The translations under genes and the position numbers were made by a program. 64,000 bases of DNA. Origin: a bacterium (lineage in GTDB: Bacteria; Vulcanimicrobiota; Vulcanimicrobiia; Vulcanimicrobiales; Vulcanimicrobiaceae). Where the stretch lies: the NCBI GenBank assembly GCA_021794205.1, contig JAJYRH010000004.1, positions 62,001 through 126,000 of the forward strand, written 5' to 3'. This document shows positions 2,297 to 20,381 of the stretch, in pieces. Each line of letters opens with the position of its first letter. Within the stretch, counting starts at the first letter, position 1. The notes beneath the pieces are model-generated. The model did no database searches, had not been told where the DNA came from, and worked only from the letters and a program-made list of their open reading frames with translations.

Positions 2297-2481
2297 AGGG
2301 AAGGAACGGCTCGACGACCTCGCATTCCTACTTTGCGCGATCTTAATTGGGCATAACGCGTCCGTGCTGGAATCGCCTCGCTTCAAATCCGACGCATGGT
2401 TTCCATCAGGATAACCCTGCCTTTTTACCAAACGACGCAGCCTCGGTGGTGAGATGCATGAGCACCTCCGTTGGCAAATTG

Positions 2482-3210: not shown

Positions 3211-4486
3211 TTAAATCGCTCGTTTGCATTATCGAAGAATGCCCAATCCGTGAGTCAACGACTGCGTGTGCGGAATCGAGCACCTCTAAAAACTCGGTCG
3301 TTAAATATTTCCCATTGTTGCCTCGACCGGCCAATGCGATAAATCCATTAAGCTCCGGAAAATCGACATGATTCGGTCTATAGAGTTCAACGACCAATCG
3401 TGCCATTGCTCGCAGGTAACTCACTTCGTCGACCCAGCCTCGGTCGGTCGCCCATCTAAGGATAAATTCCCATTCGAAGATTCCGGCCGAATATATGGCT
3501 CCCTTTGCTTGGGAGTTCTGTGAGGAGTGACGGCGAAACGCGCTCCCTAAATACCCGATTAACGCTATCTTCATGTCGGCTGCGAAAAAGTTGCAGTAAA
3601 GAGCGACGTCCGTAAGAAATCGCATCCTACGCTCCTGCAACATAAACGGCCGATCGAGTTGACGCAGAGAATCGCTGGCGATGAGTATACTGCTCGGTTC
3701 GCCAATGATATTTCCCAAAACGCTTACGACACGTTCCGCAAATTCACGTTTTTCAAACAATCGTGCTTTATCAAAACCAAAAGGAATCGTTGCTTCTAGA
3801 ATTTGTCCGTTCTTGTCCACTTCATATCGTGAATGAAATGCCAAGTCTGCGCCAAACTCATCGGCAAGTGCAACTAATGTCGACACTGAATCGGGCAACA
3901 AAAAATCATCGTCAAAAAGAAGCTTCAGATAACGTCCTCTGGCATGTTCGATCAAACCGTCACGATTGGCTCCGGGCTGCTGGCGATTCGGGTTATTTAT
4001 ATACCGAATTCTTTCGTCTTGCCATTTTGACACTACCGATTGCACGGCGTCGCCTATCGAGTCGTCACTTATAAGAAGTTCGAAATCTCTGTACGATTGC
4101 CCCAGAGCGCTCGATATGCAGATATCCAAAAAGTCGGGGCGGAAGGCGGGCACGAGAATCGATACGGTCGGAGCGGGAGTATGAAAAACAGGTGCTATCG
4201 TTTTTCCGTACGGGGCGCGGCCCTCGCGGCGACCATGCTGGATAAAATGGTAAAATGGCTCGACGCCGGCCGAGGCAACGTCAGGGTTACACTCAAGGTA
4301 GCGGGCGGGATCAAAATCGGCGCGCGGGTTCCGCCGCTCCTTCCATCCGTAGGTGACATAGTGATAGACTGGGTCGATACCCGAAAGCGCCACATCGCTG
4401 TATGCATTCCTATAAAACGAGCAGTCGAATTCGGTTCGAACGACGCGCAGCATTGAATCGACGACCTGAGGAATATATTGCTGCAT
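3203..4486 (-). CDS. GT2 family glycosyltransferase with N-terminal DP-x-HY repeats
   Basis: I chose the ATG at 4486 because GGAG lies four bases upstream; an in-frame TTG at 4534 would add 16 residues. The N-terminus carries two copies of the short repeat common before such transferases (DPVYHYVTYGWKERRNP, then EPFYHFIQHGRREGRAP, about residues 37-92). The GT-A fold follows with TVSILVPAF (107-115) and a metal/nucleotide-binding FDDD (191-194). Such enzymes add sugars from nucleotide donors in surface-glycan synthesis. It is coupled by an 8-bp overlap to the methyltransferase. Acceptor and linkage are unknown. Confidence 0.85.
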   Translation of the reverse strand: MQQYIPQVVDSMLRVVRTEFDCSFYRNAYSDVALSGIDPVYHYVTYGWKERRNPRADFDPARYLECNPDVASAGVEPFYHFIQHGRREGRAPYGKTIAPVFHTPAPTVSILVPAFRPDFLDICISSALGQSYRDFELLISDDSIGDAVQSVVSKWQDERIRYINNPNRQQPGANRDGLIEHARGRYLKLLFDDDFLLPDSVSTLVALADEFGADLAFHSRYEVDKNGQILEATIPFGFDKARLFEKREFAERVVSVLGNIIGEPSSILIASDSLRQLDRPFMLQERRMRFLTDVALYCNFFAADMKIALIGYLGSAFRRHSSQNSQAKGAIYSAGIFEWEFILRWATDRGWVDEVSYLRAMARLVVELYRPNHVDFPELNGFIALAGRGNNGKYLTTEFLEVLDSAHAVVDSRIGHSSIMQTSDLNA

Positions 4487-4723
4487 CTTACTCCAGGGCA
4501 ACAAGGGCGCCGAAAGCGTCGCGCCGGTCGGCAAGGTGCCTCAATTGACCGGGTTCGCGATGGGTGCCTTTATTTTTCTCTTTATACGGTAATTCTACGC
4601 ATGAGGCGTCGTTGACCTCCGCTTCATGGCGTCTAAAATTTGCTGCTCTCCGCCCCCCTTTGGCTTGGGTGAGATGACTCCGTTGGCGCCCGGTTCTCCC
4701 ACCCAAACCTCGCGAGGCCGCCC

Positions 4724-5977
4724 CTACGGTTTTATAGCGACGACGGCGTTCCCGTTGTATAAAGCGACCCACATCCGGCCATCGGGGCCCGCCACAATGC
4801 CGAATGGGAATAAGCCGCTTACTCCAATGCAGCTCCCCGGAGTCACTCCGGGCTCGCAATTTGCCTGGCCCGGTGTGATACCTAGGGTACTCATCGTATA
4901 CGTCGCGAGGGGCGACGGAGTCGCCACCCCGGCAACGGCTTGGTTCGGGGAATACACCATCACATGATCCGCGGGGGCGTCGACAACCCAAAGATTCCCA
5001 TCAGGACCGGTTGCAAGGTGTGCCGCCCAATTCACGTTGGCGTTAAATGGGTTATACGACTGGAAATAGATCTCCTTATCGGGCCCGTGTTGAGCTCCGT
5101 AGGCGAGACCAGTACTTCCGGGATCGCTGGGAGAGATTTCGGCGAGCTCTCCGGTACCACTGTCCACCCACCAAATGTTATTATCCGGTCCTACGACGAT
5201 TTGGTTCGGCTTCGGTGGCTCCTGTGGGCTGTGCCCATCGAGGTTCCAGTTCGAAGCGGCAAATTGCTTCACAACGGTATGCGACGTAATGGAAAATGCG
5301 TCAACTCCACCGTTTCCGAATTCGGTAAACCATAGGTTGCCATCGGGTCCGAACGTCAGGTAGGCCGGCGTAATCGGCTTCCACACTGGTCCACTCAACG
5401 GGTATTCCGTAATATTTCCTTGGTAGTCAATACGGCCGAGTCGATACGTTCCGTCCGGGCTCGACCACTCGTTAAACCAGAGCGCGTTATCCGGGCCTCG
5501 TACGATTTCCCAGGGGCCGCTCGGCGCGGTCGGGGTATGAAAAACAGTCGTTACGTGAGTGCATGGATCGAACCGTGCGATCGCATTCGCTCCGTATTCC
5601 GTGAACCAGATATTCCCGTCGGCGCCGACAACCGGCATGGCCGGCTGGGGAAACGCTTGGCTGCCGGTCAAAATCGACCAACTAGAAGTCCCCGCGATGG
5701 AGAGATCGCCAATCCCAGAATTGTTTTCCTGGGTAAACCAGAGTTGGCCGTCAGGCGTAAAATTGATAAACGACGGCCCGGCGTTTGTGGCGCTGTTAAT
5801 TAGATATGCCGTCATGTTTCCTACGGATATTGTGCCCGTAGTCCCCGCGGCGGTCATCGCGCTGGGCTTCCGCAAAATATTAGGCCCGCCGCTAGGGGCA
5901 AGTCCGGAGCTCCCTCCCGAGCATCCGACAATGCCAACGACGAGCCCTATGAGGGCCAACGCAATCTTCTTCGACAT
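4724..5977 (-). CDS. Vgb-like beta-propeller lipoprotein
   Basis: The 417-aa product has a lipoprotein signal (charged MSKK, hydrophobic core, GIVGC lipobox with Cys19). The rest consists of repeated blades with the signature GPDGNLWFTE and variants (DGQLWFTQ, DGNIWFTE, DNALWFNE, DGNLWVVD, DGRMWVAL), as in virginiamycin B lyase and related NHL/SMP-30 propellers. A secreted or outer-membrane-anchored propeller is well supported; lyase activity against streptogramins is not, because large environmental families share this repeat. An AAAGGAT ribosome site precedes the ATG. It stands alone between the glycan segment and the plus-strand ATPase gene. Confidence 0.82.
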   Translation of the reverse strand: MSKKIALALIGLVVGIVGCSGGSSGLAPSGGPNILRKPSAMTAAGTTGTISVGNMTAYLINSATNAGPSFINFTPDGQLWFTQENNSGIGDLSIAGTSSWSILTGSQAFPQPAMPVVGADGNIWFTEYGANAIARFDPCTHVTTVFHTPTAPSGPWEIVRGPDNALWFNEWSSPDGTYRLGRIDYQGNITEYPLSGPVWKPITPAYLTFGPDGNLWFTEFGNGGVDAFSITSHTVVKQFAASNWNLDGHSPQEPPKPNQIVVGPDNNIWWVDSGTGELAEISPSDPGSTGLAYGAQHGPDKEIYFQSYNPFNANVNWAAHLATGPDGNLWVVDAPADHVMVYSPNQAVAGVATPSPLATYTMSTLGITPGQANCEPGVTPGSCIGVSGLFPFGIVAGPDGRMWVALYNGNAVVAIKP

Positions 5978-6277
5978 GGATAATCCTTTGCGCTATTTTG
6001 AATAAAAGTAGTGATGGTATCTCGAGCATGCGTGTGACACCCGGCAGCCGGATCGTCTTGAGATCGAAAACTGCGCTGGGCTCTCTTTGCGCCGCAGACG
6101 CCGAGAACAGCCGTGAATTCGTACAGTCACGCTGCGCCCCCTGGACTCCGCCCGAGGAGATTATCCCTATCCTCGATCCGTTGTCGCCCATTCTCGAGGG
6201 GAACGCCGAAAGCAACACCCTTAAAAACCGGTGGAGACGGCAGTGTAGACCAAGGGGATTCGCTCGGAGGAAGATTC
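5978..6277. other. divergent intergenic region
   Basis: These 300 bases separate the divergent propeller and ATPase genes and must hold promoters for both. I see no RNA gene and no riboswitch I can name. A GGAGG ribosome site lies at its right end (6266-6270), seven bases before the TTG start of the ATPase gene. Open frames here (for example an ATG extension from 6113) lack ribosome sites and family similarity. Confidence 0.5.
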
Positions 6278-7222
6278 TTGGCCCGTAACGCCAATAACCT
6301 CTGCTGCATGGCGCGATATCATCGGCACTTCGGGCTCGAGCGGGACCCCTTTCTGGATACCGCCGATCCATTTTTTTACTGCGAACTCGGCGCGTTGGCG
6401 AAGGCGCGGACGCGGCTCTCCGCCTCCGTCGATGCCTCGCGCGGTATGACGGTCGTCCTCGGCGAGCCCGGTACCGGCAAGACGAGCCTCTGCGCCGCCT
6501 TGGAGCAAGAGCTGCTCTCCGACGATGCGATCGTTCTCGGCAAGATTCTCGACCCCACCTTTGCGAGCGATACCGAGTTCTTAGTCGCCGTCGGCAAGGT
6601 CTTTGGGCTCGCGCTGCCGCCGCGTTCGAGCGCCGCGCTGAAAAATGCGCTCAAAAACTTTCTCTTCGAATCGGCGATCCTCGAAAAGCGCACGCTCGTC
6701 CTGATTATCGACGAAGCGCAGAACCTCAGCGATGCAAATCTCGAAGCGCTGCGCATGCTGCTGAACTATCAAGTCCCGGCGAAGAAACTCCTCAACATCC
6801 TCCTCTTCGGACAGAGCGAACTCGCCTTGCGAATTGAAGCGCGCGGGAACCTCGCCGATCGCGTCGACGGCTGGCTCCGGCTCGATCGCCTCGACGACGG
6901 CATGGCGTCGGCACTGCTCGATTACCGGCTCACGCGCGCCGGGCTGCCGCCCGGGCGAGCGGTCTTCTCGCCGGAGGCGCGCGAGGTGCTGATTCGCGCC
7001 GCCGCAGGTCTTCCGCGCCGCCTCACCATGCTCGCGCACTTAGCCATGGAGGAGGCTGCGGATCGCAGCGCTCCGCTCGTCCTCGAAGATCACGTGCGCA
7101 GCGCGCTCTTTGCCCGCGGGATCGAACTCCCGGTGACGCCCCCGCCGGCCGCCACGGCGCGTAACGCGCAGCACCACGAATCGTTCTTCGCGCGGCTCTT
7201 TCGGCGATTCGCCACGAAGTAG
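6278..7222 (+). CDS. ExeA/GspA-type AAA ATPase
   Basis: I chose the TTG at 6278 because GGAGG lies seven bases upstream; an ATG at 6308 would remove ten residues. The N-terminal HFGLERDPF and the DPFFYC element are typical of ExeA-like proteins. Walker A is GEPGTGKTS (62-70), Walker B is LVLIIDEAQNL (about 140-150), and a GLPRRLTMLAHLAM sensor segment follows. ExeA relatives power assembly of the type II secretion multimer or transposition. No peptidoglycan-binding domain is visible in this 314-aa form. The next gene starts six bases downstream and is probably a functional partner. The role beside a flagellar region is unknown. Confidence 0.85.
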   Translation: MARNANNLCCMARYHRHFGLERDPFLDTADPFFYCELGALAKARTRLSASVDASRGMTVVLGEPGTGKTSLCAALEQELLSDDAIVLGKILDPTFASDTEFLVAVGKVFGLALPPRSSAALKNALKNFLFESAILEKRTLVLIIDEAQNLSDANLEALRMLLNYQVPAKKLLNILLFGQSELALRIEARGNLADRVDGWLRLDRLDDGMASALLDYRLTRAGLPPGRAVFSPEAREVLIRAAAGLPRRLTMLAHLAMEEAADRSAPLVLEDHVRSALFARGIELPVTPPPAATARNAQHHESFFARLFRRFATK

Positions 7223-7228
7223 CCGACG

Positions 7229-8761
7229 ATGGCGAAGCGCCCCGACTTCGAAGTGAGCGCCGACATGCGGCTGCTCGAACTCCAGCGTCAGGCCGCAGGA
7301 GCCCCGGTTCGCGAGACGCGTTGGGAACCGAGCGCCGCCGATCTCGAGGAGCTCGAAGATGCTCCCCAGGTCGCCGAGCCCCCAAGCGCACCCTCGACCG
7401 GAGCGGTGCTCCACCTCGCACTCGCCGCAGGCCCGGAACGCGGTCTCATTCCGGGGGCGCTCGTCAGCGTCACCATCGCGCTCTCGAACGACGGCGGCGT
7501 TCCCGCCGAAGGGATCGTGCTCTCTCTTCCGCTTCCCGCCGCCGCACGCTATCGGAGCGGCACCCTACAGCGTGACGGGCGCACGCTCGATGACGAGCGC
7601 GGCGAGGAGCTCTTTGGCGAAGGGCTCGCGATCGGCGCGCTCGCTCCCGGCGAACGCTGCACGATCGCCTATCGCATCGAGGTTGGGGCGGGCGTTACCC
7701 CCTTGCTCCTGTTGCCGCACGCCCGCTCGCTCAATGCCGCCGTCATCGGCGCACGTCCCCTTCGCCTCGCACGCGGTAGCGCCGGAACGGCGTTCTCCAG
7801 CGCGGTGCGCAACGAACTCGCCGATCTTCCGGCAGCGGAGCCGAGCGAGGAAGAGTTGCCGATCTACGAACTCGACGAGGAAGAGCAACTCGAATACGAA
7901 GCGACCGCTGCCGCGCTCTCGAGCGCTGCACCGCCTTTCTCGCCGCCTGCGGAGCCCACGCCTCCCGAGCCCGCACCGCCGTCCGCATCCACCCCCGCAC
8001 CGGAGCCCTCAGCTGCGACTCCGCCCGCTCCCGCACCACGCACCGCACGCGAACCTGTTCCCGCACGCGAACCCGCTCCCGCACGCGAACCCGCTCCCGC
8101 ACGCGAACCCGCTCCGCTCCCGCGCAGCGTCCCCGCGCTCCATCGTCGGCTCGACCGCGCGTCGGTCGCATTTTTCGAACGCTCCTTCGCCGCCGGGCGC
8201 GGTGCGACGCTCGTCGGGCACGCGCTCTTTGCTTCGGCGCTCGCGTGCGTTGATGGCGAAGAATCAGCGCTCCTCGCCCACCTCGATCGGCAAGCCGCGC
8301 TGCTCCACCGCATTACCCTCCACGCAAAACTTGGCCGCGCGGAGCGACTCGCTTCCTATGCAGGGGAGAGTTTCGTTCCCACGATCGCCGTCGATCTGCC
8401 CCCGCCCGCCTCGGCAAAAGGCGAGATCGTCCTCACCTTGGAGATCACCGACGCCGTGCGCGAGCGCATTGCGAGCGCGATCGGTGGGGATCGCCCGTGG
8501 GATTTTCACCGCGCTCGTCGTCTCGAACTCGCGCTCATGGCCGAAGCGATCTCCGCAGGATATCCGAACGAGCGCGAAGCGGAGCTCGATCGCGAAGCAC
8601 TCGCCGAGTACCGCGCACTCTGGCAGGCCGCTCTGCAGCGGCTCTTCGTCCGGGCGCGCCTCGAACCGAGCATCGCCGTCGTTCAGAGCGCCGACGCGGC
8701 CCTCGATACGGCGGCGCGGCGCCTCCTCGAACGCCTCAAGCGCACGAACGACGCGGGATAG
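7229..8761 (+). CDS. uncharacterised protein with DUF11-like domain and Pro-rich repeat linker
   Basis: I do not recognise this 510-aa protein as a named family. Residues about 70-175 resemble a DUF11-type beta-sandwich (GALVSVTIALSNDGGVPAEG, then LPLP and LAPGERCTIAYRIEV). An acidic stretch (EEELPIYELDEEEQLEYE) and a Pro/Ala/Glu-rich linker with a PAREPA repeat follow. The C-terminal 200 residues are mainly alpha-helical and Ala/Arg/Leu-rich. No signal peptide or membrane helix is visible, so it is probably cytoplasmic. It lies six bases after the ExeA-like ATPase gene and converges on the FliT-like gene 11 bp away. High Ala/Arg content makes other frames look open too, but this frame has the domain structure. 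Confidence 0.7.
   Translation: MAKRPDFEVSADMRLLELQRQAAGAPVRETRWEPSAADLEELEDAPQVAEPPSAPSTGAVLHLALAAGPERGLIPGALVSVTIALSNDGGVPAEGIVLSLPLPAAARYRSGTLQRDGRTLDDERGEELFGEGLAIGALAPGERCTIAYRIEVGAGVTPLLLLPHARSLNAAVIGARPLRLARGSAGTAFSSAVRNELADLPAAEPSEEELPIYELDEEEQLEYEATAAALSSAAPPFSPPAEPTPPEPAPPSASTPAPEPSAATPPAPAPRTAREPVPAREPAPAREPAPAREPAPLPRSVPALHRRLDRASVAFFERSFAAGRGATLVGHALFASALACVDGEESALLAHLDRQAALLHRITLHAKLGRAERLASYAGESFVPTIAVDLPPPASAKGEIVLTLEITDAVRERIASAIGGDRPWDFHRARRLELALMAEAISAGYPNEREAELDREALAEYRALWQAALQRLFVRARLEPSIAVVQSADAALDTAARRLLERLKRTNDAG
8045..8116 (+). repeat. 18-bp tandem repeat, four units
   Basis: Four consecutive 18-bp units (GCACGCGAACCCGCTCCC, first and last units slightly diverged) lie inside the linker of the preceding gene and encode PAREPA-type hexapeptides. 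The unit is a multiple of three, so a change in copy number would lengthen or shorten the linker without breaking the frame. Confidence 0.9.
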
Positions 8762-8772
8762 CTTCCCGGTCC

Positions 8773-9168
8773 TTACTGCTGCGAATCGAGCCCGGCGCGG
8801 CGCGGCGGAATGGAGTTCGCACCGATGGAGCGCGCGTAGGCCTTAAATTTCACGAACGTCTTCAAACGCTCGCCGAGTTCTTCGTGATAGGCGCTCAAGC
8901 GCACGATCTGACGGTCTCGAATTGCGTGAATGCGTTCGAGCCGTTCGCGCACGAATGCATCGAAGGCTTCGTCGCGATCGAGATCGGCGCGTTCGAGCTC
9001 CTTCTCCAGCGAATGCGTGATGCGACGCGCGTTGCCGATCGCCGTGTCGAGACGCTCCCAATCGTGCTCTTGCAGCGCCGATTCCAATTCCGCACACGAA
9101 CGTTCGAGCGCGCCGATCTCGGCGAGCGCCGCCGTGCGCGCGGGGCTATCCGACTGCGGCAAAACCAC
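8773..9168 (-). CDS. FliT-like coiled-coil protein, possible flagellar chaperone
   Basis: The 131-aa protein is almost entirely helical and charged, with heptad-like stretches (ALERSCAELESALQEHDW, then ITHSLEKELERADLDRDEA). It follows fliS with a 23-bp overlap at the end of the flaG-fliD-fliS operon, the place where fliT is normally found. FliT-type proteins chaperone FliD and, in some bacteria, regulate flagellar transcription. Sequence alone only supports a small helical protein; the FliT name comes from position and size. The GTG start at 9168 has no clear ribosome site, so coupling to fliS translation is likely. Confidence 0.6.
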   Translation of the reverse strand: MVLPQSDSPARTAALAEIGALERSCAELESALQEHDWERLDTAIGNARRITHSLEKELERADLDRDEAFDAFVRERLERIHAIRDRQIVRLSAYHEELGERLKTFVKFKAYARSIGANSIPPRRAGLDSQQ

Positions 9169-9592
9169 TGCTCGCCGTCGGCTCGCTCGCCTCGCTCTCG
9201 TTTCGCTGCATCGCCTTAAACTGCGAGACCGCCTCGGCCCAGGTTTTGCGATAATCGATAAAGTCCGGGAGCAAGCGTTCGACGCGTACGACGTCCTTCT
9301 GCATGTTCGCCATCACGAGTTCGTGATGCCAAAACTCGTAGACGCGAAAGAGATTCGTCGCGAGTTCGCCGCCGATCTCCATATCGAGCGCACCCATCAA
9401 CACGGCGAGAGCGCGCTGCGCGCGCAGGAGCGCGCGGTGAATTCTCTCGATATCGCCGACGTCGGCATGCATTTTCTCGACCGCCTGCTGTGCCGAAAGG
9501 ATCAAGATATCGAAGACGCGCACGATCAGGTCCTCTTTCGAAGCCGTTAAGATCGCCGTTTCGACGTACTTGTCGTTTGCCGAACGCGCCAC
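9146..9592 (-). CDS. fliS: flagellar secretion chaperone FliS
   Basis: The 148-aa protein has the FliS pattern: Y..TAILTASKEDLIVRVFDILI at the N-terminus, the LD.EIGGELATNLFRVYEFW core, and an LLPDFIDYRKTW segment. FliS binds the C-terminal D0 helix of flagellin in the cytoplasm and stops premature polymerisation before export. It lies 15 bp after fliD and overlaps the FliT-like gene. Length and motif order match the family. The final 20 residues (RNESEASEPTASSGFAAVG) look disordered. Confidence 0.92.
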   Translation of the reverse strand: MARSANDKYVETAILTASKEDLIVRVFDILILSAQQAVEKMHADVGDIERIHRALLRAQRALAVLMGALDMEIGGELATNLFRVYEFWHHELVMANMQKDVVRVERLLPDFIDYRKTWAEAVSQFKAMQRNESEASEPTASSGFAAVG

Positions 9593-9607: not shown

Positions 9608-11623
9608 CTAACTTCCCGAGCTCGAGCCGTTAAAGAAGCCGGCGAGCTGCGATTGCAGCGATTGGTACTGCGCTAGCGTCGCCTCGGTCTGTACGAACTC
9701 TTGCCGCAACGTGTTCGCTTGTTGATTCGCGTTATCTTGAATCTGCGAGATCTGCGATTGAAGCTGAGTGATCTGGTTCGTATTTTGGTTTTGGAAGGTC
9801 TGCAATAACGAGACCGGGGGGACGCTCCCCACGATGCCGTTACTCAACAACGTCGGCAAGCCGGTGGCGTAGGTGAGGTAGGAGCCGAGTTGGTTGGTCA
9901 GGCCTTGCGCTCCGTTGAGGAGATCCTGCACCGCGTTTGGATTCGCAGCGAGCGCCGCATCGAGCTTTGTGACGTCCAACGGCTGCAACGTGCCGTCGGT
10001 ACCCTGGAACGTCGTCGTATTGACGGCCTGCTGTCCGGTCGATCCCGGCTGCGTCGCCTGACTGTTATACGAAAGTTGCGAGAACGCGCTGCTGGTCTGG
10101 AGCCCGATCTGCGAGAGCGAATTATAGCCCCCGAACGATCCGCTTCCCAAGAAGCCGCTGACGATATTGGTCAGTTGGTCCTTCAGATTCGTAACGCTGT
10201 CGACTCCGAAAAGAATACCGCCGCCGACCGCCGGTGCCACCTGCCCCGGTAGGGCCGTTCCCTGCGCGGCCTGCAGGACGATCGGAGCCTGCGTCGCGCT
10301 GTTGATCTCGGTCACCGCGGAGTTATATGCCGAAACGAAGGTGTTGAGCGCATTCACTAACTGCGAGTTATCCTGCGCCACCGTCACCGTAAACGGAGAA
10401 GGGGTGTTGCCCGTCAGTTGCAACGAGACGCCCGGTATTGCGGTCGTCACCGTGTTGCTGTTGCTGTAGTACGTCGTCGATCCGCCCGACGGATTTGCAA
10501 CGACGACCTGCGATTGCTGTCCGACCGTCGTCGTCGCTCCCGCTGCCGAGGTGAGCCCGACCGCGGTGAGAAAATTGCTGGTATCGCCCGAGGAACCGAC
10601 GATGATCGATTGCGCGCCGCTGCTCTTGTTCGTCAGCGAAATGCCGCCGGTCTGCGCGTTATACGTCGCGATGACGCCGGCATTACTCGTGTTGATCTTT
10701 GCAAGCACCGAGGCGAGATTATCGCCCGTGGCCGAGACGCTGATGGAGACGCCATTGATCGTGAAGTTTCCGCTGGTAACCGGGGTGACGAAACCCGCGT
10801 TCGTGCCGGTCGAATCGAATGAGACCGCTTGATTGATGCCGCCGACTCCGGCGGTCCCGGTAACGCCGGTCGTCGGCCCGGTATTGTTGATCTGCGCTCC
10901 CGAAAGGCGGAGCACGTCGAGAAGATTTCCTTGATCGTTCGCACTACCGAGTGTGATCGGCTTGCTTCCGCTCAGGACGACCGCACCCGATGCGTTCAGC
11001 GATGCGGTGAACGACGGATCGTAGGCTTGCACCGCGGTTTGAATATTCGCGAGAATCGTATTGAGCGACTGCGTGTTGACGTCGTAATTCACCGATACGC
11101 CGTCGATCGTTACCGATCCGGTCGATCCACTGCCGTTGGTCGGCGTGATCGCCGCATACGAATCGACGAGCGGAACGGTATTCGAGGCCTGGCCGGCGTA
11201 GATCCCCGCCGTCGCCGGGAGCAGGTCGGTAATCGCGTGTCCGGCCGCCGTATTGCTGAGGACCGAGGTCGGCGTCGCCGTCTGTACCGAGTCGATCGTA
11301 TAGACGCCGGGAACGGCATTCCCGCCGGCGATCCCCGAGGCGACGATCGCCGCGAGGTTCGTGCTCGTTGCCGAAACGGCATCGTAGATATTCGGTTGCG
11401 AGAGCGCACCGAGCGCCGTCTGCACGGAAGAAAGGAGATTGTTGATCTTGATCAGTTCGAGGTTGGCGGCATTGAGCGTCGCAATCTGCTGATTGATCTG
11501 CGTTGTCGGCGCCAGCGTCAGCGCGGTCAACTTCTGAATGATCGAATTATAATCGATACCCGACACGATGCCGGGAAAAGAAACGGGGGGGATGTTCGTC
11601 CCGGGGATCTGGCTAGTGGACAT
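9608..11623 (-). CDS. fliD: flagellar filament cap protein FliD (HAP2)
   Basis: The 671-aa product has the FliD layout: an N-terminal GIVSGIDYNSIIQKLTAL segment with the conserved GxDxxxxIxxL helix, central beta-rich D2/D3 domains containing FTINGVSISV repeats, and a C-terminal coiled coil (QLQSQISQIQDNANQQANTL) ending in LAQYQSLQSQLAGFF. FliD caps the filament tip and folds exported flagellin into place. At 671 residues it is larger than the enterobacterial protein, with the extra length in the variable outer domains. A GAGGAAAGGA ribosome site precedes the ATG. It follows flaG by 36 bp and is very probably read from the flaG promoter. Confidence 0.94.
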   Translation of the reverse strand: MSTSQIPGTNIPPVSFPGIVSGIDYNSIIQKLTALTLAPTTQINQQIATLNAANLELIKINNLLSSVQTALGALSQPNIYDAVSATSTNLAAIVASGIAGGNAVPGVYTIDSVQTATPTSVLSNTAAGHAITDLLPATAGIYAGQASNTVPLVDSYAAITPTNGSGSTGSVTIDGVSVNYDVNTQSLNTILANIQTAVQAYDPSFTASLNASGAVVLSGSKPITLGSANDQGNLLDVLRLSGAQINNTGPTTGVTGTAGVGGINQAVSFDSTGTNAGFVTPVTSGNFTINGVSISVSATGDNLASVLAKINTSNAGVIATYNAQTGGISLTNKSSGAQSIIVGSSGDTSNFLTAVGLTSAAGATTTVGQQSQVVVANPSGGSTTYYSNSNTVTTAIPGVSLQLTGNTPSPFTVTVAQDNSQLVNALNTFVSAYNSAVTEINSATQAPIVLQAAQGTALPGQVAPAVGGGILFGVDSVTNLKDQLTNIVSGFLGSGSFGGYNSLSQIGLQTSSAFSQLSYNSQATQPGSTGQQAVNTTTFQGTDGTLQPLDVTKLDAALAANPNAVQDLLNGAQGLTNQLGSYLTYATGLPTLLSNGIVGSVPPVSLLQTFQNQNTNQITQLQSQISQIQDNANQQANTLRQEFVQTEATLAQYQSLQSQLAGFFNGSSSGS

Positions 11624-11659: not shown

Positions 11660-12115
11660 TTACGCGTTGCTGTCGAGCGTCACTCCTTGATGCTGATCGA
11701 AAAACTCGGCGATCCCGATGAGGATCTCCGGCGGGAACTGCGCGACCTCTTGATTCGTCCGTGGATCGGAGAAAACGGTCACGATCTCGTTGGGATGGTG
11801 CAACACGCGATACGATACGTTAAGGGTAACCGGTTGTGGGTTCGTGGGCGGCCCGAAAAAACGCGCGACCGACGAGACGACCTTCCCGTCGCCGTTCGCC
11901 GGCGCCGGGCCGAAGCCGACCTGGGGCGGAGCGCCCGAGGAATTCGGTGTGCCGATCGGCCCCGACGGGGCCGGAGGGACGCTCGCAACGCTCGGCGTTG
12001 CGCCTTCTAGCGGTGCGTTCTCACCCGCGCCCGGAGGGGCGCCGTTCGCACCGGAAACCGCGGCGGCTCCGGGAATCGGTGGCGGCGCGACCGCCGCTGC
12101 AGACGTGACATCCAT
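11660..12115 (-). CDS. flaG: FlaG family flagellar protein
   Basis: I chose the ATG at 12115 because a GGGGG ribosome site lies about eight bases upstream; longer frames to 12313 run into the preceding gene. The first 90 residues are Pro/Ala/Gly-rich and probably disordered. Residues about 105-145 carry the FlaG signature: LNVSYRVLHHPNEIVTVFSD, then QEVAQFPPEILIGIAEFF, equivalent to the family's R-Q-IPPE block. FlaG proteins influence filament length and usually precede fliD, as here. It begins the flaG-fliD-fliS-fliT-like unit and has its own sigma-28-type promoter. Confidence 0.87.
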   Translation of the reverse strand: MDVTSAAAVAPPPIPGAAAVSGANGAPPGAGENAPLEGATPSVASVPPAPSGPIGTPNSSGAPPQVGFGPAPANGDGKVVSSVARFFGPPTNPQPVTLNVSYRVLHHPNEIVTVFSDPRTNQEVAQFPPEILIGIAEFFDQHQGVTLDSNA

Positions 12116-12146: not shown

Positions 12147-12174
12147 TCATCGGCGCCGCACGAGGGGCAGTTTA
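12147..12174 (-). promoter_or_regulatory. sigma-28 (FliA/SigD)-type promoter of the flaG operon
   Basis: Read on the minus strand, TAAACTGC (12174-12167) and GCCGATGA (12154-12147) are separated by 12 bases. They match the sigma-28 consensus TAAA and GCCGATAA (7 of 8 in the -10 box). The -10 box lies 31 bases before the flaG start. The TAA of the -35 box is also the stop codon of the upstream glycosyltransferase gene (12174-12172). Confidence 0.75.
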
Positions 12175-14178
12175 GTCGACGCCCGCGCGGCTCCGAGCCC
12201 GTTCGCCGGCGAGCTGATAGGCGGTCACGTAGGCGACGAACGCGGTGGTTTGATCGAATGCGACGCGGACGTGCGAGCGCAGGGCATCGCGCTCCGCAGG
12301 CGTCCGCTCCCACGCCCGCGCCAGCCCCGCCTCGATCGAGGCATGGTCACCGGGGTCGACGACCTCGGCGAATGAACCGAAGAGCTCGCGCCCGTATCCC
12401 GCTGCCGAGAGTACGGGAAAGGCCCCGGTCGCAGCGGCGGCGGCGACCACGTGGAGGCCGCGCCCCGACCAAGCGCAGTCGGCGACGACGCGCGCCCGCG
12501 CCCGAAGCCAGGCGCGGTTGGCAAGGTTGAGGTGGCGCTGCGGTACCCAGATCGCCTGGACGCCCATCGCCTCCATGAGGCTCTGGAACCACTGATGATC
12601 GATGACCGGCCCCGTAAAGACGATGGGCAGCGAGCGCTTCTTCGCCGCCAGCGCCAACGCGATCTGATTCGAGCGCGCTTCGACCGGGAGATCGCAGAGA
12701 ACGAATTCACCCTCCCCGGCGAGGACGCGCGCATCCTCGTAGCGCGGTGCACCTTCCACAAGCCCCGGCACCGCGATCGCGCTCCCCGCCCAGCCGAAGC
12801 GGCTGCGCAGCAGCGCCTCCTCAGCCGGGCACGAGAGCACCGCAACGTCGCACCGTTCCAGCATCGCCCGAACCCCGGCCTCCGCGGCGGGGCGCGGGTC
12901 GAATTCGCGCTCCGGCGCGGCATTCTCGATCGAGAGCGCGCGGGCACCGAGCGCGGCGAAATAGAGATCGAACATCGCCGCGTCGTTGACGTTACCGTAG
13001 ACCGCCTTCGTCGCCTTCGGCCCGGAGAACGCTTCGCCGCGCGGATCGTCGACGGAGAGCGAGGCGACGAGCGGCATCGCGGGCATCGATTTCAGCAGCG
13101 CGACCGCCGCCGGAGCGACCTCGCTCCCCCAGGCGTGCACGAGATCGTACGATGAAAGATCGGCGTGTGCGCCGACGGGGAAGACGCCGACGTCGAAGCC
13201 CTCGCGCTCCAAACGCCGCGCGAGCACGTGCATCGCCATTGCATCGGCGTCAGGATTGGTCAACGCATCCTCGCGCACGAGCATCGCGATGCGCCCCGAG
13301 GATCCGCCCTGCACCGCCGGCTCGTTCAGCACGCTCGCACGCGCTTCAACCGAAGTGCCCGCAAAGGAAACGCCGAGCGTACTCGCCGTCGGCCCATCAT
13401 CGGGATCGAACGAGACCGTGATCGCCGGCGGTAGCGCGACGGTCACGGGAATTGCAATATCACCGCTCTCTCCGCCGTCGCGAAGCACGCGTACCCGCGC
13501 GTCGGGGAGCGCTTCAGGGCGCTGCGCAACGACGAGATCGTAGGTTCCGGCGCGGTCGAGCGGAGTGGGAGCGATGTCGAGCCAGCGCGCGGCAAAAGCG
13601 AGTGCCTCGGGGTCGCCGAGATCGAGCGCGATATCGGCGCCCGCGCGCGCGAGCGAGAGCGCACCGACCGCCCCACGCGAATCGACGATCGCGGCCCGCG
13701 TTCCGGGCCGCACGTAGCGCGCGGCAAAAACGTAGGGCGCGAGATCTTCGTATAGGTCGGTGTAGCTCGTCACACCGAGGAGGCGCAATTCCCGGGCACG
13801 CGCGATATCGCGCTCCGTGCGAGGATCGAAGATCTCCAAGCTCTCGGCGCGCGCGCGCCGATTGAGAAATTGAACGCGGAGCCAGGGAAAGATCTTCCGT
13901 TCGATATCATCGGCGCGTTGCGGATCGAGCGATCGATAATCGAGCGGCCAGAGCAGCACGCTGCTCTCGCGCTCCAGCAATGAAGCGACTTCAATTTCGC
14001 AGTTGAAGACGATCGTCCAGCGCTCCGCATCGCGAAAGCCGAGATCGATCGTGCAGCGTTGCGTGAGCGACCAGCCGGGTTCCAAGCGCGCGAAGGCGAA
14101 CGTCGCGGCACCGATCGCGGCCATCGCTTCATCGCGAGGCCGCAGTGAGAAGCGCCGATGGCGATCGTGGAATCTCAC
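12172..14178 (-). CDS. probable GT-B-type glycosyltransferase of the flagellin locus
   Basis: The 668-aa protein has an N-terminal region with a Rossmann-like segment (RPGTRAAIVDSRGAVGALSLA, about 155-175) and a C-terminal half resembling GT4-type GT-B transferases: RIAMLVREDALTNPDADAM, an SYDLVHAWGSE segment, and a closing nucleotide-binding region (SGRGLHVVAAAAATGAFPVLS, then a FAEVVDPGD block). The usual E-x7-E motif is not clear, so activity is inferred. Its GTG start overlaps the preceding transferase gene by 4 bp (GTGA), and its stop codon forms part of the flaG promoter. Position between flagellin and flaG suggests flagellin glycosylation. Confidence 0.65.
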   Translation of the reverse strand: MRFHDRHRRFSLRPRDEAMAAIGAATFAFARLEPGWSLTQRCTIDLGFRDAERWTIVFNCEIEVASLLERESSVLLWPLDYRSLDPQRADDIERKIFPWLRVQFLNRRARAESLEIFDPRTERDIARARELRLLGVTSYTDLYEDLAPYVFAARYVRPGTRAAIVDSRGAVGALSLARAGADIALDLGDPEALAFAARWLDIAPTPLDRAGTYDLVVAQRPEALPDARVRVLRDGGESGDIAIPVTVALPPAITVSFDPDDGPTASTLGVSFAGTSVEARASVLNEPAVQGGSSGRIAMLVREDALTNPDADAMAMHVLARRLEREGFDVGVFPVGAHADLSSYDLVHAWGSEVAPAAVALLKSMPAMPLVASLSVDDPRGEAFSGPKATKAVYGNVNDAAMFDLYFAALGARALSIENAAPEREFDPRPAAEAGVRAMLERCDVAVLSCPAEEALLRSRFGWAGSAIAVPGLVEGAPRYEDARVLAGEGEFVLCDLPVEARSNQIALALAAKKRSLPIVFTGPVIDHQWFQSLMEAMGVQAIWVPQRHLNLANRAWLRARARVVADCAWSGRGLHVVAAAAATGAFPVLSAAGYGRELFGSFAEVVDPGDHASIEAGLARAWERTPAERDALRSHVRVAFDQTTAFVAYVTAYQLAGERARSRAGVD

Positions 14179-16793
14179 GGTTTCTCCACTTCGACGAGTC
14201 GCCGCAGCGAGCTCGGGCTCGCGTTGGGAATGTCGACGATGGCGACGGTTCGCGCGGCGACTTCGAGCTCTTCATCGAGGTCGATCACTTCGACGTCGGC
14301 GCACCTCTCCGACGAAATATCGAGCGACGCAAGAATTTTTTCGATCCGGCGTTCGACCGCCGCCGCATCGCCGCCCTCGCCGAGGCGCAACGTCAGCACG
14401 ACGGGATCCTCACTGCGGAACGCACGCAGATAGCGCCGCATGAAGCGCCCGACGGGTTCCCAGGCGGCATCGCCTCCGGAAAACTCGGCGACGAACCGCA
14501 CGTCGGCGGCGCGTTCGTTGCGCTCGCTCGGCCGCTCCTCTCGAGGTGCATCGAGTTTTGGTTTCGGTAACGCAGCGTAATGCAGCGCGCGATTGAAACC
14601 GTTGAAGTATCCCGGACGCGGGTCGTAGCCGCTCTCGGGATAGGCGGGCGGGTAGCCCCATTTCGCCGCAAAGTACGTCCAGTTCGCGCGCATCGTCGCG
14701 CCGTAATCGACGTTATTGGCAACGAAGCTGCGACTGCCGAAATGATGGATGAAGGCATCCTCGCAAACGAATATTTTGTACCCAGCCGCACGCGCGCGCA
14801 TGCAGAGATCGTCATCTTCGAAGTTGCCGACGCCGAAGCGTTCGTCGAAGCCGCCGATTTCATCGACGAGCGCTCTCGGCATGCAGAGACAGAAGCCGAC
14901 CGCGCGGTCGGTGTAGTATCCACGCCCCTTGAACCGACGCCCGCGCTCCGCAGCGAATGCCAGCATCGCCGCCTCGTCCTCGTAGCGCGCGTTCGGAACC
15001 TGCTGGTGCCCCGAGACGCTATTGCTCCGCGGAGCGGTGATGCCGACTGCGCGCTTATCTCGGTACGGGCGCAACAGTGCCTCCAGCCAACCATCGCTGA
15101 CTAAGACGTCGTTATTGAGCACGACGACGTACTCGCCGCGCGCCGCCGCCATACCGATGTTGTTTCCCGCACCGAAGCCACGATTCACGCCGTTGTAAAG
15201 CACGCGGACGTGGGGGTCGTCGATCGAACGCAGGTAGGCGATCGTATCGGGCCCCGATCCATTATCGACGACGATAATTTCGAACGGTTCGCGCGTCCTT
15301 GCGAGCAGGGAGTTCAATGCCAATTTCGTGTATTCGGGCGCGTTCCAACTGAGCGTGACGATCGAAACGAGTCCGGGTTCGGGTGCGTCGGCAACCGTCA
15401 GTCGCTCTTTCAAAAATGCGTCGTCGCGACCGATCAAGGAAGCGATGCTGCGCTGATAGGTGCGTTCGAAGAGATCGTCGCGCTCCGGCTCGGCGTTGCC
15501 TTCCACGACCGCCTCGTCCATCCCGACGACCCCGATCCCGAGTTCGAGGGCACGTACGCAGAGATCGGCGAGGCTTCCGGGGAGGCTCGGAAACGGCTCG
15601 AGCCGATAGTGCTGTGGAAGCCGCCACAGCGCGACGAGCAGCGCGCGCGCGTCACCGCACGCCGGCGACGCATCGAAACCGAGCATCGCTTCGGGCGCAC
15701 CCGTCGCCGCAAACGCGTCGTAGCGGATTTCGAGGCGCCGCGAAAGGTGTTCGAACCACCCGGGAGCGAGTGCGATGCGTGCGTCGAGAAAAAACGCGTA
15801 CCGATTTCCGCGCAATTCCATCGCCGCTTTCGCAGCATCGATATCGTCGCGACCGATCCAATCGATCCCGTCGATTTTTACGGGAGCCGCGCGCAGGTCG
15901 CGTTCGATACGTTCGCGGCGGTCCGGCGTCACCTCGCCGTGAACCACCGCACGCATCGACGGAGTCGGGAGCATCTGCGCCGAGACTACGGCGTTCGGCA
16001 TGACGACCGTTCGCTTCACGAGGCCGCGTTCGTAGTCCCAAAGCCCGGCGTCGATCCGCGGAAAATCTCGCCAGCGTCGCTCGAGGCGCGCGATATTGGG
16101 CATGACGCGCCGGAAGCGCTGCGAGCCGGATTGCGATTCGTAATGAAAGAGCACGGCCTTCGGTTCGTAGACGATGCGCAGGCCGGCATGGCGAATTTTC
16201 AGACAGTAATCGACATCTTCGTAGCCGTTCCAAAAGCCCTCGTCGAGCCCACCGAGACGAACGTAGAGATCGCGCGGCGTTGCCAGGCACGCTCCCGTCA
16301 CCGCCTGAACGTCGCGGCGCTTCATGACCGTCGGTTCCTCTGTCGGAGCGAGAAATCCGAAATGGGTCGGCGCCATCGTATTGACGCCGCTCAACACCTC
16401 GTTGAAGATCACGCCCGCGTGTTGAATCAAGCCGTCGCCGAATAGCAGACGGGCGCCGACCGCGCCGACATCCGGGTTTTCGAGATGCGCGAGCATCGCT
16501 TCGATCCAGCCCGGCATCGCCTTCGTATCGTTGTTGAGGAGCACGAGAAAACGCCCCGAAGCGACCGCCGCGCCCTGATTGTTCGCGACGGCAAAGCCGA
16601 GGTTCCGTTCGTTGACGATCGTCTTCACCCACGGGAACTCAGCGAGGACGGTGGCGGTATCGTCGGTCGAGCCATTGTCGACGACGATGACCTCGCCCAG
16701 AACATCGCGCGGCAACGTCTCGGCAAGCGCCTGCAAACAGACGCGCGTCAACGCGGCCTTATTGAAGACGGGAATAACGATCGAATAGAGCAA
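14175..16793 (-). CDS. tandem-domain GT2 glycosyltransferase
   Basis: The 872-aa product carries two GT-A domains. The first (about 1-250) has YSIVIPVFNK, VIVVDNGSTDDT and FLVLLNNDT; the second (about 472-740) has VSIVTLSWNAPEY, IIVVDNGSGPDT and YVVVLNNDV. Both keep the NND metal-binding motif and a GGLDE/GGFDE acceptor-loop motif, so both may be active. A C-terminal stretch of about 120 residues is of unknown type. Two-domain GT2 proteins often build short repeating glycans. It lies 8 bp after the TPR-glycosyltransferase gene and overlaps the next transferase gene, so all three form one operon. The start is a TTG with no strong ribosome site. Confidence 0.85.
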   Translation of the reverse strand: MLYSIVIPVFNKAALTRVCLQALAETLPRDVLGEVIVVDNGSTDDTATVLAEFPWVKTIVNERNLGFAVANNQGAAVASGRFLVLLNNDTKAMPGWIEAMLAHLENPDVGAVGARLLFGDGLIQHAGVIFNEVLSGVNTMAPTHFGFLAPTEEPTVMKRRDVQAVTGACLATPRDLYVRLGGLDEGFWNGYEDVDYCLKIRHAGLRIVYEPKAVLFHYESQSGSQRFRRVMPNIARLERRWRDFPRIDAGLWDYERGLVKRTVVMPNAVVSAQMLPTPSMRAVVHGEVTPDRRERIERDLRAAPVKIDGIDWIGRDDIDAAKAAMELRGNRYAFFLDARIALAPGWFEHLSRRLEIRYDAFAATGAPEAMLGFDASPACGDARALLVALWRLPQHYRLEPFPSLPGSLADLCVRALELGIGVVGMDEAVVEGNAEPERDDLFERTYQRSIASLIGRDDAFLKERLTVADAPEPGLVSIVTLSWNAPEYTKLALNSLLARTREPFEIIVVDNGSGPDTIAYLRSIDDPHVRVLYNGVNRGFGAGNNIGMAAARGEYVVVLNNDVLVSDGWLEALLRPYRDKRAVGITAPRSNSVSGHQQVPNARYEDEAAMLAFAAERGRRFKGRGYYTDRAVGFCLCMPRALVDEIGGFDERFGVGNFEDDDLCMRARAAGYKIFVCEDAFIHHFGSRSFVANNVDYGATMRANWTYFAAKWGYPPAYPESGYDPRPGYFNGFNRALHYAALPKPKLDAPREERPSERNERAADVRFVAEFSGGDAAWEPVGRFMRRYLRAFRSEDPVVLTLRLGEGGDAAAVERRIEKILASLDISSERCADVEVIDLDEELEVAARTVAIVDIPNASPSSLRRLVEVEKP

Positions 16794-16801
16794 GGCCGGG
16801 G

Positions 16802-18898
16802 CTATCGAACGAGTGCGGCGTCGGCGATCCGGCGCGCGTCCTCAAAACGCTCTTGCTTTAAATACAACATCGAGAGTTCGACCGCGACGCGCTGCGGATC
16901 GAGCTGGAGCGCGGCGAGTAACATTTGCTCGCTTTCGGGCTCGCGGCCTAGTTGTTGTAAGAGAGCCGAGCGCAGAATCACCGCTTCGATGTTCTGCGGT
17001 GCGCGCGAGAGCACCATCTCCGTCGATGCGAGTGCCTCTTCGAGGGCTCCGCGTCCGCGCGCGTCGAGCGCGAGCATCATCCGCGCCCGCAAAAAGAGAT
17101 CGCCGCTCTCCGCAGGCACCCGCACGGCCCAGCGCCGCGCGCTCTCCGCATCGCCCATGCTCGAGCATGCGAGCGCCGCGCCGAAGAGCAGGGCTCCGTC
17201 GGCAGGCTCGCGTTCGAGGCCGCGCTCGGCGATCGCCCGCGACTCCGAGAAACGCCCTTGCGCGAGCAGGCGGCTCGTGCGACGTCGAAAATCTGCAATC
17301 TCGAGCGGTTCGGTCGCATCCTCGGCTGCATAGAGCCGTTCGAGTCCCGCTTGGTCGCCGCGCGCCCGCAGAATCGCCTCCAACGGATCCAACGCGAGGG
17401 CGGCGCCCGGCATGCGTTCGGCCGCCTCTCGCAAAAACTGCTCCCGTTCCGGCCACCCATTCCGTTCGCAGACTGCCGCACCGGCCATCAACACCGGAAA
17501 TTGAGCGGTCGGAGAGATCTGCGGAACCGCCGCGCGGATCGCATCGAGCGCTTCGCGGTCGCGATGGGCGCGCAGGAGAAAGTTTACATAATCGACCGCG
17601 CTCTGGTCGGAGGGAAGATCGCGGAACGCCGCCGCGAAGGTCGCCGCGGCCTCATCGATCCGCTTGAGCCGTTCGTAGGCGCGCGCGAGATTGAGCCGCA
17701 GCGGCAACGCCGACGGGCGATTTTTCAGCCCTTTTTCGAACCACTCCACCGCCGCGATATCGTTTCCTTCGGCCACGTAGGTCGCGCCGACTTCGCTATA
17801 CGCCTTCCATTTCGAAACTTCGTCGTCGACGACGAACTGCAGGTGGTTGTATTCGCCGTCGCCGATCGCCGCCTGAAACGCCTCGCGTGCATTGACGAGT
17901 CGCTTCTGCGCGACGAGCGCCTTGCCGAGTGCGAAATGGCCGTTTGCATAACGCGGCGAGAACTTCAAACAGAGACGCGCCGCCTCTTCTCCTTTGACGG
18001 GATCGTTGAGCTTTTCCGTATAGACGTCGGCGAGCGCCGATAGCCCGTTGGCGAAAAATCCGCGCGGTTGATCCTTATTGACCTCGATCATCTTCTCCAG
18101 CGCCGTACGCGCGGTTTCGTAATCGCCGATCAAGAAGGCCGTCGTCCCGAGATTGAACCAATGGAACGCCTCCTCCGGTTCGCGCTCCACTGCCGCCTTC
18201 ACGATCGCGATATTCCGCGCGCCCTTATCTCGCTCGGTCACGATCTCTTTGAGATAGCCGCTATGCTTGATCGCAATCGGCGATGCCGAGGCCTTCAGCC
18301 CCAACTGCGACTGGTCGAGCGTGATGAATTCGTGGATCAGGCCACGATATCGAATGCGCGGGTGGTTCGGAAAGATGCGAATCAAAAGATGCGACATCTG
18401 CCCGGTGCCTTGGTAGTCGTTCGATTCGTTGTAACAACGCACCCAGACGCCCGTATCGAAGGCCGGGACGTTTTTGAGTTGAGCGAGAAGCGATTCGCTG
18501 CCCGGCAGATACTCTTCATCGGCGTCGAGCATAAAGATCCACCGATACGACGCCATCGCAATCGCTTCATTCCGCGCCCACGAAAAATCGTTCCGCCATT
18601 CCCGAATCTCGATTTTGGCGCCGAACTCTCGCGCGATCTCGACGGTTCGATCGATCGATCCGGTATCGACGATGCAGATTTCGTCGACGTAGGGCGCGAT
18701 GCTCTGCAAGCATTTTGCCAAGAACTTTTCTTCGTTCTTGACGATCATGCAGAGGCTCAGGCCCGCAGGGAGCTGCGGGGCATCGGCCGGCGGGCGCGGC
18801 AAAGAGATCGTTTGCGCGATAGTCGCAGGCTGCGTCGGCGAAGGAGAGACGCTCGGCGGAGCGGCCGCCTGTTTTTTTGCTTTGATCCGAACCGGCAT
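16802..18898 (-). CDS. GT2 glycosyltransferase fused to TPR repeats
   Basis: After a Pro/Gln-rich leader, residues about 45-250 form a GT2 domain of the SunS/TPR-glycosyltransferase type: LSLCMIVKNEEKFLAKCL, ICIVDTGSIDRTVEIA, FSWARNEAIAMASYRWIFML followed by DADEE. The remaining roughly 450 residues are tetratricopeptide-like helices (for example AFHWFNLGTTAFLIGDYETA). Related proteins glycosylate peptides or proteins, with the TPRs recognising the acceptor. It is the first gene of a three-gene glycosyltransferase operon directly downstream of flagellin, which makes flagellin the likely acceptor. The ATG is preceded by GAAGAGAAGAG. The flagellin terminator upstream implies a separate promoter. 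Confidence 0.85.
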   Translation of the reverse strand: MPVRIKAKKQAAAPPSVSPSPTQPATIAQTISLPRPPADAPQLPAGLSLCMIVKNEEKFLAKCLQSIAPYVDEICIVDTGSIDRTVEIAREFGAKIEIREWRNDFSWARNEAIAMASYRWIFMLDADEEYLPGSESLLAQLKNVPAFDTGVWVRCYNESNDYQGTGQMSHLLIRIFPNHPRIRYRGLIHEFITLDQSQLGLKASASPIAIKHSGYLKEIVTERDKGARNIAIVKAAVEREPEEAFHWFNLGTTAFLIGDYETARTALEKMIEVNKDQPRGFFANGLSALADVYTEKLNDPVKGEEAARLCLKFSPRYANGHFALGKALVAQKRLVNAREAFQAAIGDGEYNHLQFVVDDEVSKWKAYSEVGATYVAEGNDIAAVEWFEKGLKNRPSALPLRLNLARAYERLKRIDEAAATFAAAFRDLPSDQSAVDYVNFLLRAHRDREALDAIRAAVPQISPTAQFPVLMAGAAVCERNGWPEREQFLREAAERMPGAALALDPLEAILRARGDQAGLERLYAAEDATEPLEIADFRRRTSRLLAQGRFSESRAIAERGLEREPADGALLFGAALACSSMGDAESARRWAVRVPAESGDLFLRARMMLALDARGRGALEEALASTEMVLSRAPQNIEAVILRSALLQQLGREPESEQMLLAALQLDPQRVAVELSMLYLKQERFEDARRIADAALVR

Positions 18899-19018: not shown

Positions 19019-20296
19019 TTAGCGGAAGAGTCCGAGAACCGACTGAGCGTTCGTGTTGGACTGAGCCAACACCGAGGTGCCGACCTGTACCAGCACTTGC
19101 AGCTTCGTGAACTGCGTCGTCGCTTGACCGACGTTGAGGTCGCGGATCGACGATTCCGAGGCCTGCAGGTTGACGGCCGCGATGTTGTCGTTGTTCGAAT
19201 CTTCGTTGAGACGGACGACGACCGCACCGAGGAGTGCCTGCTGGTTGAGAATCGTGTTGAGCGCCTGGTCGATCTGACCGATCGCGTCTTCCGAACCGAT
19301 CGACGGGTTGTTCGCCGCCGAGAGTGCCAGGTTGATGTTCGAGATGCGCAGAGTCTGCGTATTCGTGGCCTGGATGCCGATTTGGATGACGTCCCCCTCG
19401 TTCGCTCCCGATTGGAAGTTGAACGCGGGGTTATTCGGATTGGTCAGCGCAGCGACGTTCTGCGTCACTTTGACGTACGAGGTCACACCGACATCGAGCG
19501 AGCTGATCGACCCGATGGTGACGTTCACGTTGTCGAACGCACCGGCGACGCTGGTCGCGCCGTAGAGCGTGCTCGAAACGCAGACCTGGCCCGTCGCGCT
19601 GGCGACGAAGGTTTCCTGAACGGCGATCGAGACGCCGGTGTTGATCACCTGGAGTTCGATCGTGCCGTCGAGCGTCGAACCGGTCGCACCCGAGAGACCG
19701 GCTGCGGGGCCGGCTGCCGTGGTGAAGAAGTTCGCGCTGTTGGCGACCGCCGAAGCGGCGAGGAAGCCGTAGTTGAAGCCCGAGACTTGGAGCGCTCCGT
19801 TGGTGGAGAGCGCCGAGTTCGAGGTAACGTTGATCGCAGCTTGCACCTGCGGCTGGAAGCCGGCATGGCTACCATCGAGGAGCGGCTGACCGTTGAAGTT
19901 GACGCTCTGCGAGATGCTGTTGACTTCGAGCAACAACTGGCTCACTTCAGCCTGAAGGTTGACGCGATCCTGATTGCTGTTGAGGTCGGACGAAGCCTCG
20001 ACTGCGAGGCTACGAATGCGCTGCAGAATGTCGGTCGTCGTAGAAAGCGCACCGAGCGCGACTTGCGCCGCGTTGTTCGCGTTCTGGACGTTCTGAACGG
20101 CGGTGTTAAAGCCATCGACCTGCGTTTGCAGATTGGTGGCGATGGCGAGACCGGACGGATCGTCCGCCGCGGAGTTGATGCGCAAACCAGACGAAAGCTG
20201 AGTAACAATGTTCTTCAGCGCAGCCTGGTTATTGTTCAGGTTAAACTGAACGCTATTGGCCAACAGGTTGTTGGCGATGCTCAGACCTTGAGCCAT
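19019..20296 (-). CDS. fliC: flagellin
   Basis: The 425-aa protein keeps the conserved ends of flagellin. The N-terminal D0/D1 region has the LNNNQAALKNIVTQLSSGLRINSAADDPSGLAIA block, here as N..AL..I...LSSGLRINSAADD. The C-terminal helix runs from DAIGQIDQALNTI to an RDLNVGQATTQFTKLQVLVQ segment and ends NAQSVLGLF. The middle (about 160-330) is variable and Asn/Thr/Ser-rich, with many possible O-glycosylation sites. I used the ATG at 20296, with AAGGAGG seven to eight bases upstream; an upstream in-frame start at 20332 lacks a ribosome site. It is monocistronic, with its own sigma-28-type promoter and terminator, and is flanked by csrA and the glycosyltransferase operon. Confidence 0.96.
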   Translation of the reverse strand: MAQGLSIANNLLANSVQFNLNNNQAALKNIVTQLSSGLRINSAADDPSGLAIATNLQTQVDGFNTAVQNVQNANNAAQVALGALSTTTDILQRIRSLAVEASSDLNSNQDRVNLQAEVSQLLLEVNSISQSVNFNGQPLLDGSHAGFQPQVQAAINVTSNSALSTNGALQVSGFNYGFLAASAVANSANFFTTAAGPAAGLSGATGSTLDGTIELQVINTGVSIAVQETFVASATGQVCVSSTLYGATSVAGAFDNVNVTIGSISSLDVGVTSYVKVTQNVAALTNPNNPAFNFQSGANEGDVIQIGIQATNTQTLRISNINLALSAANNPSIGSEDAIGQIDQALNTILNQQALLGAVVVRLNEDSNNDNIAAVNLQASESSIRDLNVGQATTQFTKLQVLVQVGTSVLAQSNTNAQSVLGLFR

Positions 20297-20381
20297 GTGA
20301 TTTCCTCCTTGATTGTTGCGCGCAGAGCGCACAGGTAGAGACTGGTCATCTGCGAGGAAGCGTCCTGCTCCCTCCCTCAGT

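Follow-up and report, generated by a model that had tools for sequence, protein, structure and literature searches.

A candidate flagellin glycosylation operon with a probable pseudo-glycosyltransferase in the Vulcanimicrobiaceae

A three-gene operon downstream of flagellin

Sequence comparisons give good support to the interpretation of a three-gene operon from the Vulcanimicrobiaceae as a dedicated flagellin-glycosylation operon, which very probably serves to assemble a sugar chain on flagellin. The operon lies within a 64,000-nucleotide stretch of contig JAJYRH010000004.1 (hereafter the window), which derives from a 2.2-Mb MAG of 45 contigs, and it encodes a GT2-TPR protein, a tandem GT2 protein and a third protein with a predicted GT-B fold. 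Flagellin glycosylation islands are of a known kind, and the variant found here is new. The explanation that best accounts for the whole, in which we place somewhat more belief than doubt, is that the GT2-TPR and tandem GT2 proteins would make a cytoplasmic flagellin glycan, with the third protein as a pseudo-enzyme partner.

The genes of the region are arranged on the minus strand in the order FlgK, FlgL, FliW, CsrA, flagellin, GT2-TPR, tandem GT2, third protein, FlaG, FliD, FliS and a 131-aa protein, with CsrA, FlgK and FlgL assigned by eye. Flagellin (19019-20332 as called, with a likely start at 20296; Flagellin_N 1.2e-33, Flagellin_C 4.8e-15) is the presumed acceptor, and its gene is followed after 120 bp by that of the 698-aa GT2-TPR protein (16802-18898), in which a GT2 domain at residues ~46-230 (Pfam PF00535, 1.2e-22 at residues 48-176) precedes many TPRs at residues ~231-698 (Pfam TPR families at ~235-696). 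After a further 8 bp comes the gene for the 872-aa tandem GT2 protein (14175-16793), which matches Pfam GT2 in two stretches (3.9e-52) and has domains at residues ~1-235 and ~471-700. The end of this gene and the start of the third gene (12172-14178; 668 aa) share a 4-bp start-stop overlap, GTGA, and this start-in-stop coupling was present in 31 of the 34 locus rows compared, three of which come from genomes already represented. The third gene is separated by 56 bp from that of FlaG (11660-12115), beyond which lie those of the FliD filament cap (9608-11623; PF07195 6.7e-33, PF02465 3e-13) and the FliS flagellin chaperone (9146-9592; PF02561 1.3e-23). An earlier note on this DNA had described three glycosyltransferase genes forming one operon between flagellin and its cap and chaperone genes, and both the tight spacing and the flanking assignments agree with that placement.

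The identification of FlaG is based on PF03646 matches among its family members, 11 of 14 of which matched (best 6.9e-9, with E values up to 1 counted). The protein of the window itself scored 0.11 and 13.1 bits, under the cut-off of 23.8, and a profile search of its own genome with PF03646 returned no match, though the family of the downstream gene is FlaG. Promoter-like sites were sought between 11500 and 20900 and none were found, and a scan for terminators detected 13 compared to 8.3 expected, an uninformative result.

The flagellin center had also been called Ser/Thr/Asn-rich. Residues 141-330 contain 11% S, 10% T and 10.5% N, compared to 11% S, 5% T and 15% N in the conserved N-terminal part, and because the two hardly differ in summed S/T/N, the Ser/Thr/Asn content carries little weight. 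Two further flagellin genes are present in the source genome (G000:C39:90168 and C39:125630; L034 and L035), with no GT operon beside them.

Co-occurrence of the operon and flagellin

The distribution of the operon was analyzed in 98 relatives, 65 of which belong to the family and order of the window. Genes were called in these genomes with a simple ORF rule that misses genes in contigs of odd composition (e.g., L070 and L072), and those missed were recovered either from the ORF list or by running HMMs over every ORF. GT2-TPR was detected (E <= 1e-30) in 42 of the 98 genomes and flagellin above cut-off in 45. Within the family and order, 37 genomes carried both genes, 3 flagellin only, 2 GT2-TPR only and 23 neither, a co-occurrence with a Fisher p of 3e-12 when kinship among the 65 genomes is ignored. 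Moreover, flagellin was directly upstream of GT2-TPR in 34 of the 39 carriers in this group. Among the other five, GT2-TPR lies at a contig edge in three (G001, G050, G052), flagellin is missing in one (G047), and the only copy is flgE-linked in one (G053). The three genomes with flagellin and no GT2-TPR match (G028, G056, G065) are all drafts, and the G065 contig begins inside the third gene. The two with GT2-TPR only are G050 and G047, the latter (L070; 96% complete) having kept the operon, FliD and FliS, with flagellin found neither upstream nor elsewhere. G047 and the three genomes with flagellin only, like the two further flagellins of the source genome, weigh against the proposal. In two more distant genomes of the same phylum (G080 and G087), GT2-TPR and flagellin share a contig and are 2.4-4 kb apart; in G081, GT2-TPR is present and flagellin is absent.

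In no relative was the same operon seen far from motility genes, the arrangement that the earlier note had named as evidence against its proposal. It is the co-occurrence and adjacency, together with the likeness to GmaR described below, that lead us to regard the operon as a dedicated one. The proposal of a dedicated flagellin glycan made by four GT domains is thus supported as to the dedication of the operon to flagellin, from which we infer that flagellin is modified, but not as to the number of GT domains.

In G080, which belongs to another family of the phylum, a gene at L075:4108-8751 encodes a 1547-aa fusion that matches both the GT2-TPR and the tandem-GT2 models. It is situated behind flagellin, and the genes after it were judged by eye to be epimerase-like and DegT-like.

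The two GT2 proteins

The best PDB match for the GT2-TPR protein was the flagellin GlcNAc transferase GmaR (1.5e-30, residues 44-239), in accord with the earlier assignment of this enzyme to a type that glycosylates proteins. The protein has three features of the GmaR type, namely a GT2 domain with DxD, an array of TPRs on the C-terminal side of this domain and a gene beside flagellin, and the DxDE motif is kept in all 37 aligned rows. For the tandem GT2 of the window, NND and ED motifs were found at 87/192 and 560/659, and among 30 aligned rows, in which two genomes are represented twice, NND and ED are intact in both domains of 22. The motifs have been lost from the first domain in five operon copies (G014, G044, G047, G066, G070), and the other three rows without both NND/ED pairs (L075, L076, L077) are more distant or are not the operon gene.

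Gene content across the genomes is nested, from GT2-TPR alone (G059), through GT2-TPR with a single GT2 (G025-G027), to GT2-TPR with the tandem GT2 and the third protein (most genomes elsewhere), as would be expected if GT2-TPR starts the sugar chain. This natural series could serve to work out the order of sugar addition.

GT2-TPR genes behind flgE

Five genomes (G014, G044, G053, G064, G070) have a GT2-TPR gene away from the flagellin cluster, in every case directly behind flgE, which was assigned by eye and by match to the copies in other genomes. These copies are located at L087:9839-11464, L071:4991-6505, L090:8649-10193, L091:2009-3508 and L092 about 3643-4981, and in G053 the flgE-linked copy was the only one found. 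Four of the copies were usable for a tree, in which they group as a single clade (97/99), and the G070 copy is partly masked. In 11 other genomes, flgE is present without a following GT2-TPR, and FlgE is 496-504 aa long in four genomes with the flgE-linked copy compared to 530-650 aa in eleven others.

GT2-TPR genes therefore follow the genes for axial flagellar proteins, both flagellin and flgE, which leads us to think that the enzymes are encoded next to their substrates. This pattern suggests that the flgE-linked GT2-TPR is a dedicated hook glycosyltransferase, and hook glycosylation becomes a testable idea; no paper on glycosylation of the hook or FlgE came up in phrase searches of the library consulted. 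The combined proposal, that the tandem GT2 and the coupled GT-B pseudo-glycosyltransferase form a pair and that, in addition, one GT2-TPR duplication was re-targeted to the hook protein FlgE, is one that we advance tentatively and with some doubt.

The third protein lacks the GT4 donor-site residues

The third protein matched no family in Pfam or NCBIfam, and only a few of its relatives matched GT4-type models, weakly (best 0.00099). A structure predicted with AlphaFold2 from a 13-row alignment had a pLDDT of 79.8, compared to 37 from the single sequence, and VIA-align matched this model to sucrose-phosphate synthase (6kih) over 326 residues with a Z of 29.6 and an rmsd of 3.2 A. The fold match to GT4-type GT-B enzymes spans residues 292-663, while the N-terminal domain (residues 1 to ~290), which is without assignment, is barely covered by the fold search, and we do not propose a new fold for it. 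The earlier description of this ORF as GT-B type is consequently right as to fold, on the evidence of the predicted model and the fold search.

The operon form has lost three residues that we take to be markers of the GT4 donor site, namely the donor-site lysine and the two glutamates of the E-x7-E motif. The lysine was present in 0 of the 26 distinct operon copies counted, compared to 14/14 of the nearest stand-alone relatives, the first glutamate in 0/26 compared to 13/14, and the second in 0/26 compared to 12/14. Operon and stand-alone forms split at 100/100 in a tree from which the motif columns were left out. Given that the 26 operon copies form one clade, the loss of these residues represents one event, not 26, and a single ancestral change that has been kept since rather than decay in one strain. 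A search of 37 genomes detected the operon form in 25; among the remaining 12, G002 and G071 are truncated at contig ends.

Because none of the 26 copies retains the GT4 donor-site residues in its GT-B domain, the protein is more likely a non-catalytic partner, and we regard it as probably a pseudo-glycosyltransferase. By analogy, it may work as a helper, perhaps like the inactive GtfB of the GtfA-GtfB pair. The four GT domains of the earlier note are thereby reduced to three GT2 domains that keep their motifs in the proteins of the window. A literature phrase search for a pseudo-glycosyltransferase in connection with flagellin found no paper.

The main rival to the pseudo-glycosyltransferase reading is a re-made active site. 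A protein that has lost the GT4 residues is not necessarily inactive, and inverting GT-B enzymes are not known to require E-x7-E. The operon would then encode four working transferases, with the third protein an active, diverged GT-B enzyme whose new donor site round D567/W570/G574 serves to add an outermost, fast-changing sugar. Consistent with this possibility, the GT-B fold was recovered with a very high Z, and several residues are near-invariant in the operon copies (D567 and W570 in 24/26 each, G574 in 26/26, and H348 and E453 in 26/26), so that the conserved D-W-G pattern could mark a new active site. The rate of divergence, expressed as the median identity to the family's other genera, is also that expected of an outer-sugar enzyme: the third protein (31/32%) is the fastest-changing of the three operon proteins, compared to 60% (GT2) and 44% (TPR) for GT2-TPR and 57/31/60/34% (domain 1/middle/domain 2/tail) for the tandem GT2, and flagellin is at 80/66/80% (N-end/center/C-end), FliD at 56% and FliS at 63%. 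This fits an inner-to-outer order of action, without proving such an order. However, every counted copy has lost the three residues of the GT4 donor site, whereas the stand-alone relatives keep them, and we consider four working transferases possible but unlikely.

Proposed mechanism and comparison with known systems

In the explanation that we favor, a short glycan would be put on flagellin in the cytoplasm, prior to export. As suggested by GmaR and FlmG, GT2-TPR would grip flagellin by its TPR superhelix and add the first sugar to Ser/Thr, and the tandem GT2 would extend the chain with one or two more. The third protein, translationally coupled to the tandem GT2, may hold or position the acceptor or allosterically support its partner, in the manner of inactive GtfB. 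The gene order, its conservation, the co-occurrence with flagellin, the motifs kept and lost and the fold of the model are the observations on which this scheme is built.

Several known systems bear on the scheme. GmaR of Listeria monocytogenes, which is both a flagellin O-GlcNAc transferase and the MogR anti-repressor (PMC9638930), shares with the window protein an N-terminal GT2, subsequent TPRs and a link to flagellin, but here GT2-TPR is the first gene of an operon, located behind fliC, that continues with a tandem GT2 and a GT-B protein. In Clostridium flagellar islands, GT2-TPR enzymes are likewise read as flagellin GTs, and the GT2-TPR gene is also beside flagellin with sugar-synthesis genes near (PMC13317340). 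Unlike these islands, the operon described here keeps its three genes in an invariable order within one bacterial family and includes a coupled GT-B protein from which the GT4 residues are missing. A further difference is that no Maf was found here; the Maf domain PF01973 was matched in 0 of 23 genomes, in a search whose control matches were in archaea only and whose sensitivity is accordingly established for archaeal members alone. Caulobacter FlmG is similarly modular, with a TPR part that binds flagellin and a GT part, and carries out cytoplasmic flagellin O-glycosylation with no Maf (PMC7591256), but it has the TPR first and the GT last, whereas the window protein has the GT2 first and the TPR last. 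In the GtfA-GtfB pair of SecA2/SRRP systems, GtfB is the catalytically inactive, acceptor-binding partner of GtfA (PMC6973325, PMC12809243). By analogy, we predict that a protein glycosyltransferase here has an inactive partner that binds the acceptor, although the catalytic partner in GtfA-GtfB is a GT4 and here would be a GT2. These results would extend flagellin glycosylation to a phylum, Eremiobacterota, whose first cultured member is described as without flagella (PMC9758169), and they propose a pseudo-enzyme for a flagellin glycosylation pathway.

The acceptor is one that we infer, and other GT and sugar genes lie just beyond the operon, so the operon might instead make another surface glycan, such as LPS or capsule, and merely be sited in the flagellar cluster. 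We consider this very unlikely, because the operon tracks flagellin near-perfectly, has a fixed place between fliC and flaG/fliD, includes a gene of GT2-TPR architecture of which a further copy lies behind flgE, and consists of three genes only, none of which encodes a flippase, polymerase or priming transferase. It is likewise very unlikely that GT2-TPR is chiefly a GmaR-like anti-repressor with secondary transferase activity, even with GmaR described as both transferase and anti-repressor (PMC9638930), given DxDE in 37/37 rows and a conservation of 60% in the GT2 domain compared to 44% in the TPR part.

Flanking and possible sugar-supply genes

Possible sugar-supply genes are located at 1-4534 and encode, by Pfam, two DegT aminotransferases, a WbqC-like protein, a methyltransferase and one more GT2, with a putative link to flagellin; the first DegT is cut by the window edge and is 402 aa in L068. 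On the plus strand, an AAA_22 ATPase (6113-7222) and a DUF11-containing protein (7229-8761) are encoded beside the FliS end, as they are family-wide. The flank beyond this conserved pair varies between genomes, with PF02719 dehydratase, DegT and NeuB genes in L064 and nucleotidyltransferase and dehydratase genes in L066. In many genera, not including that of the window, a GT2-like protein of ~255 aa is encoded between the 131-aa and DUF11 proteins (L062:15259-16026 and equivalents).
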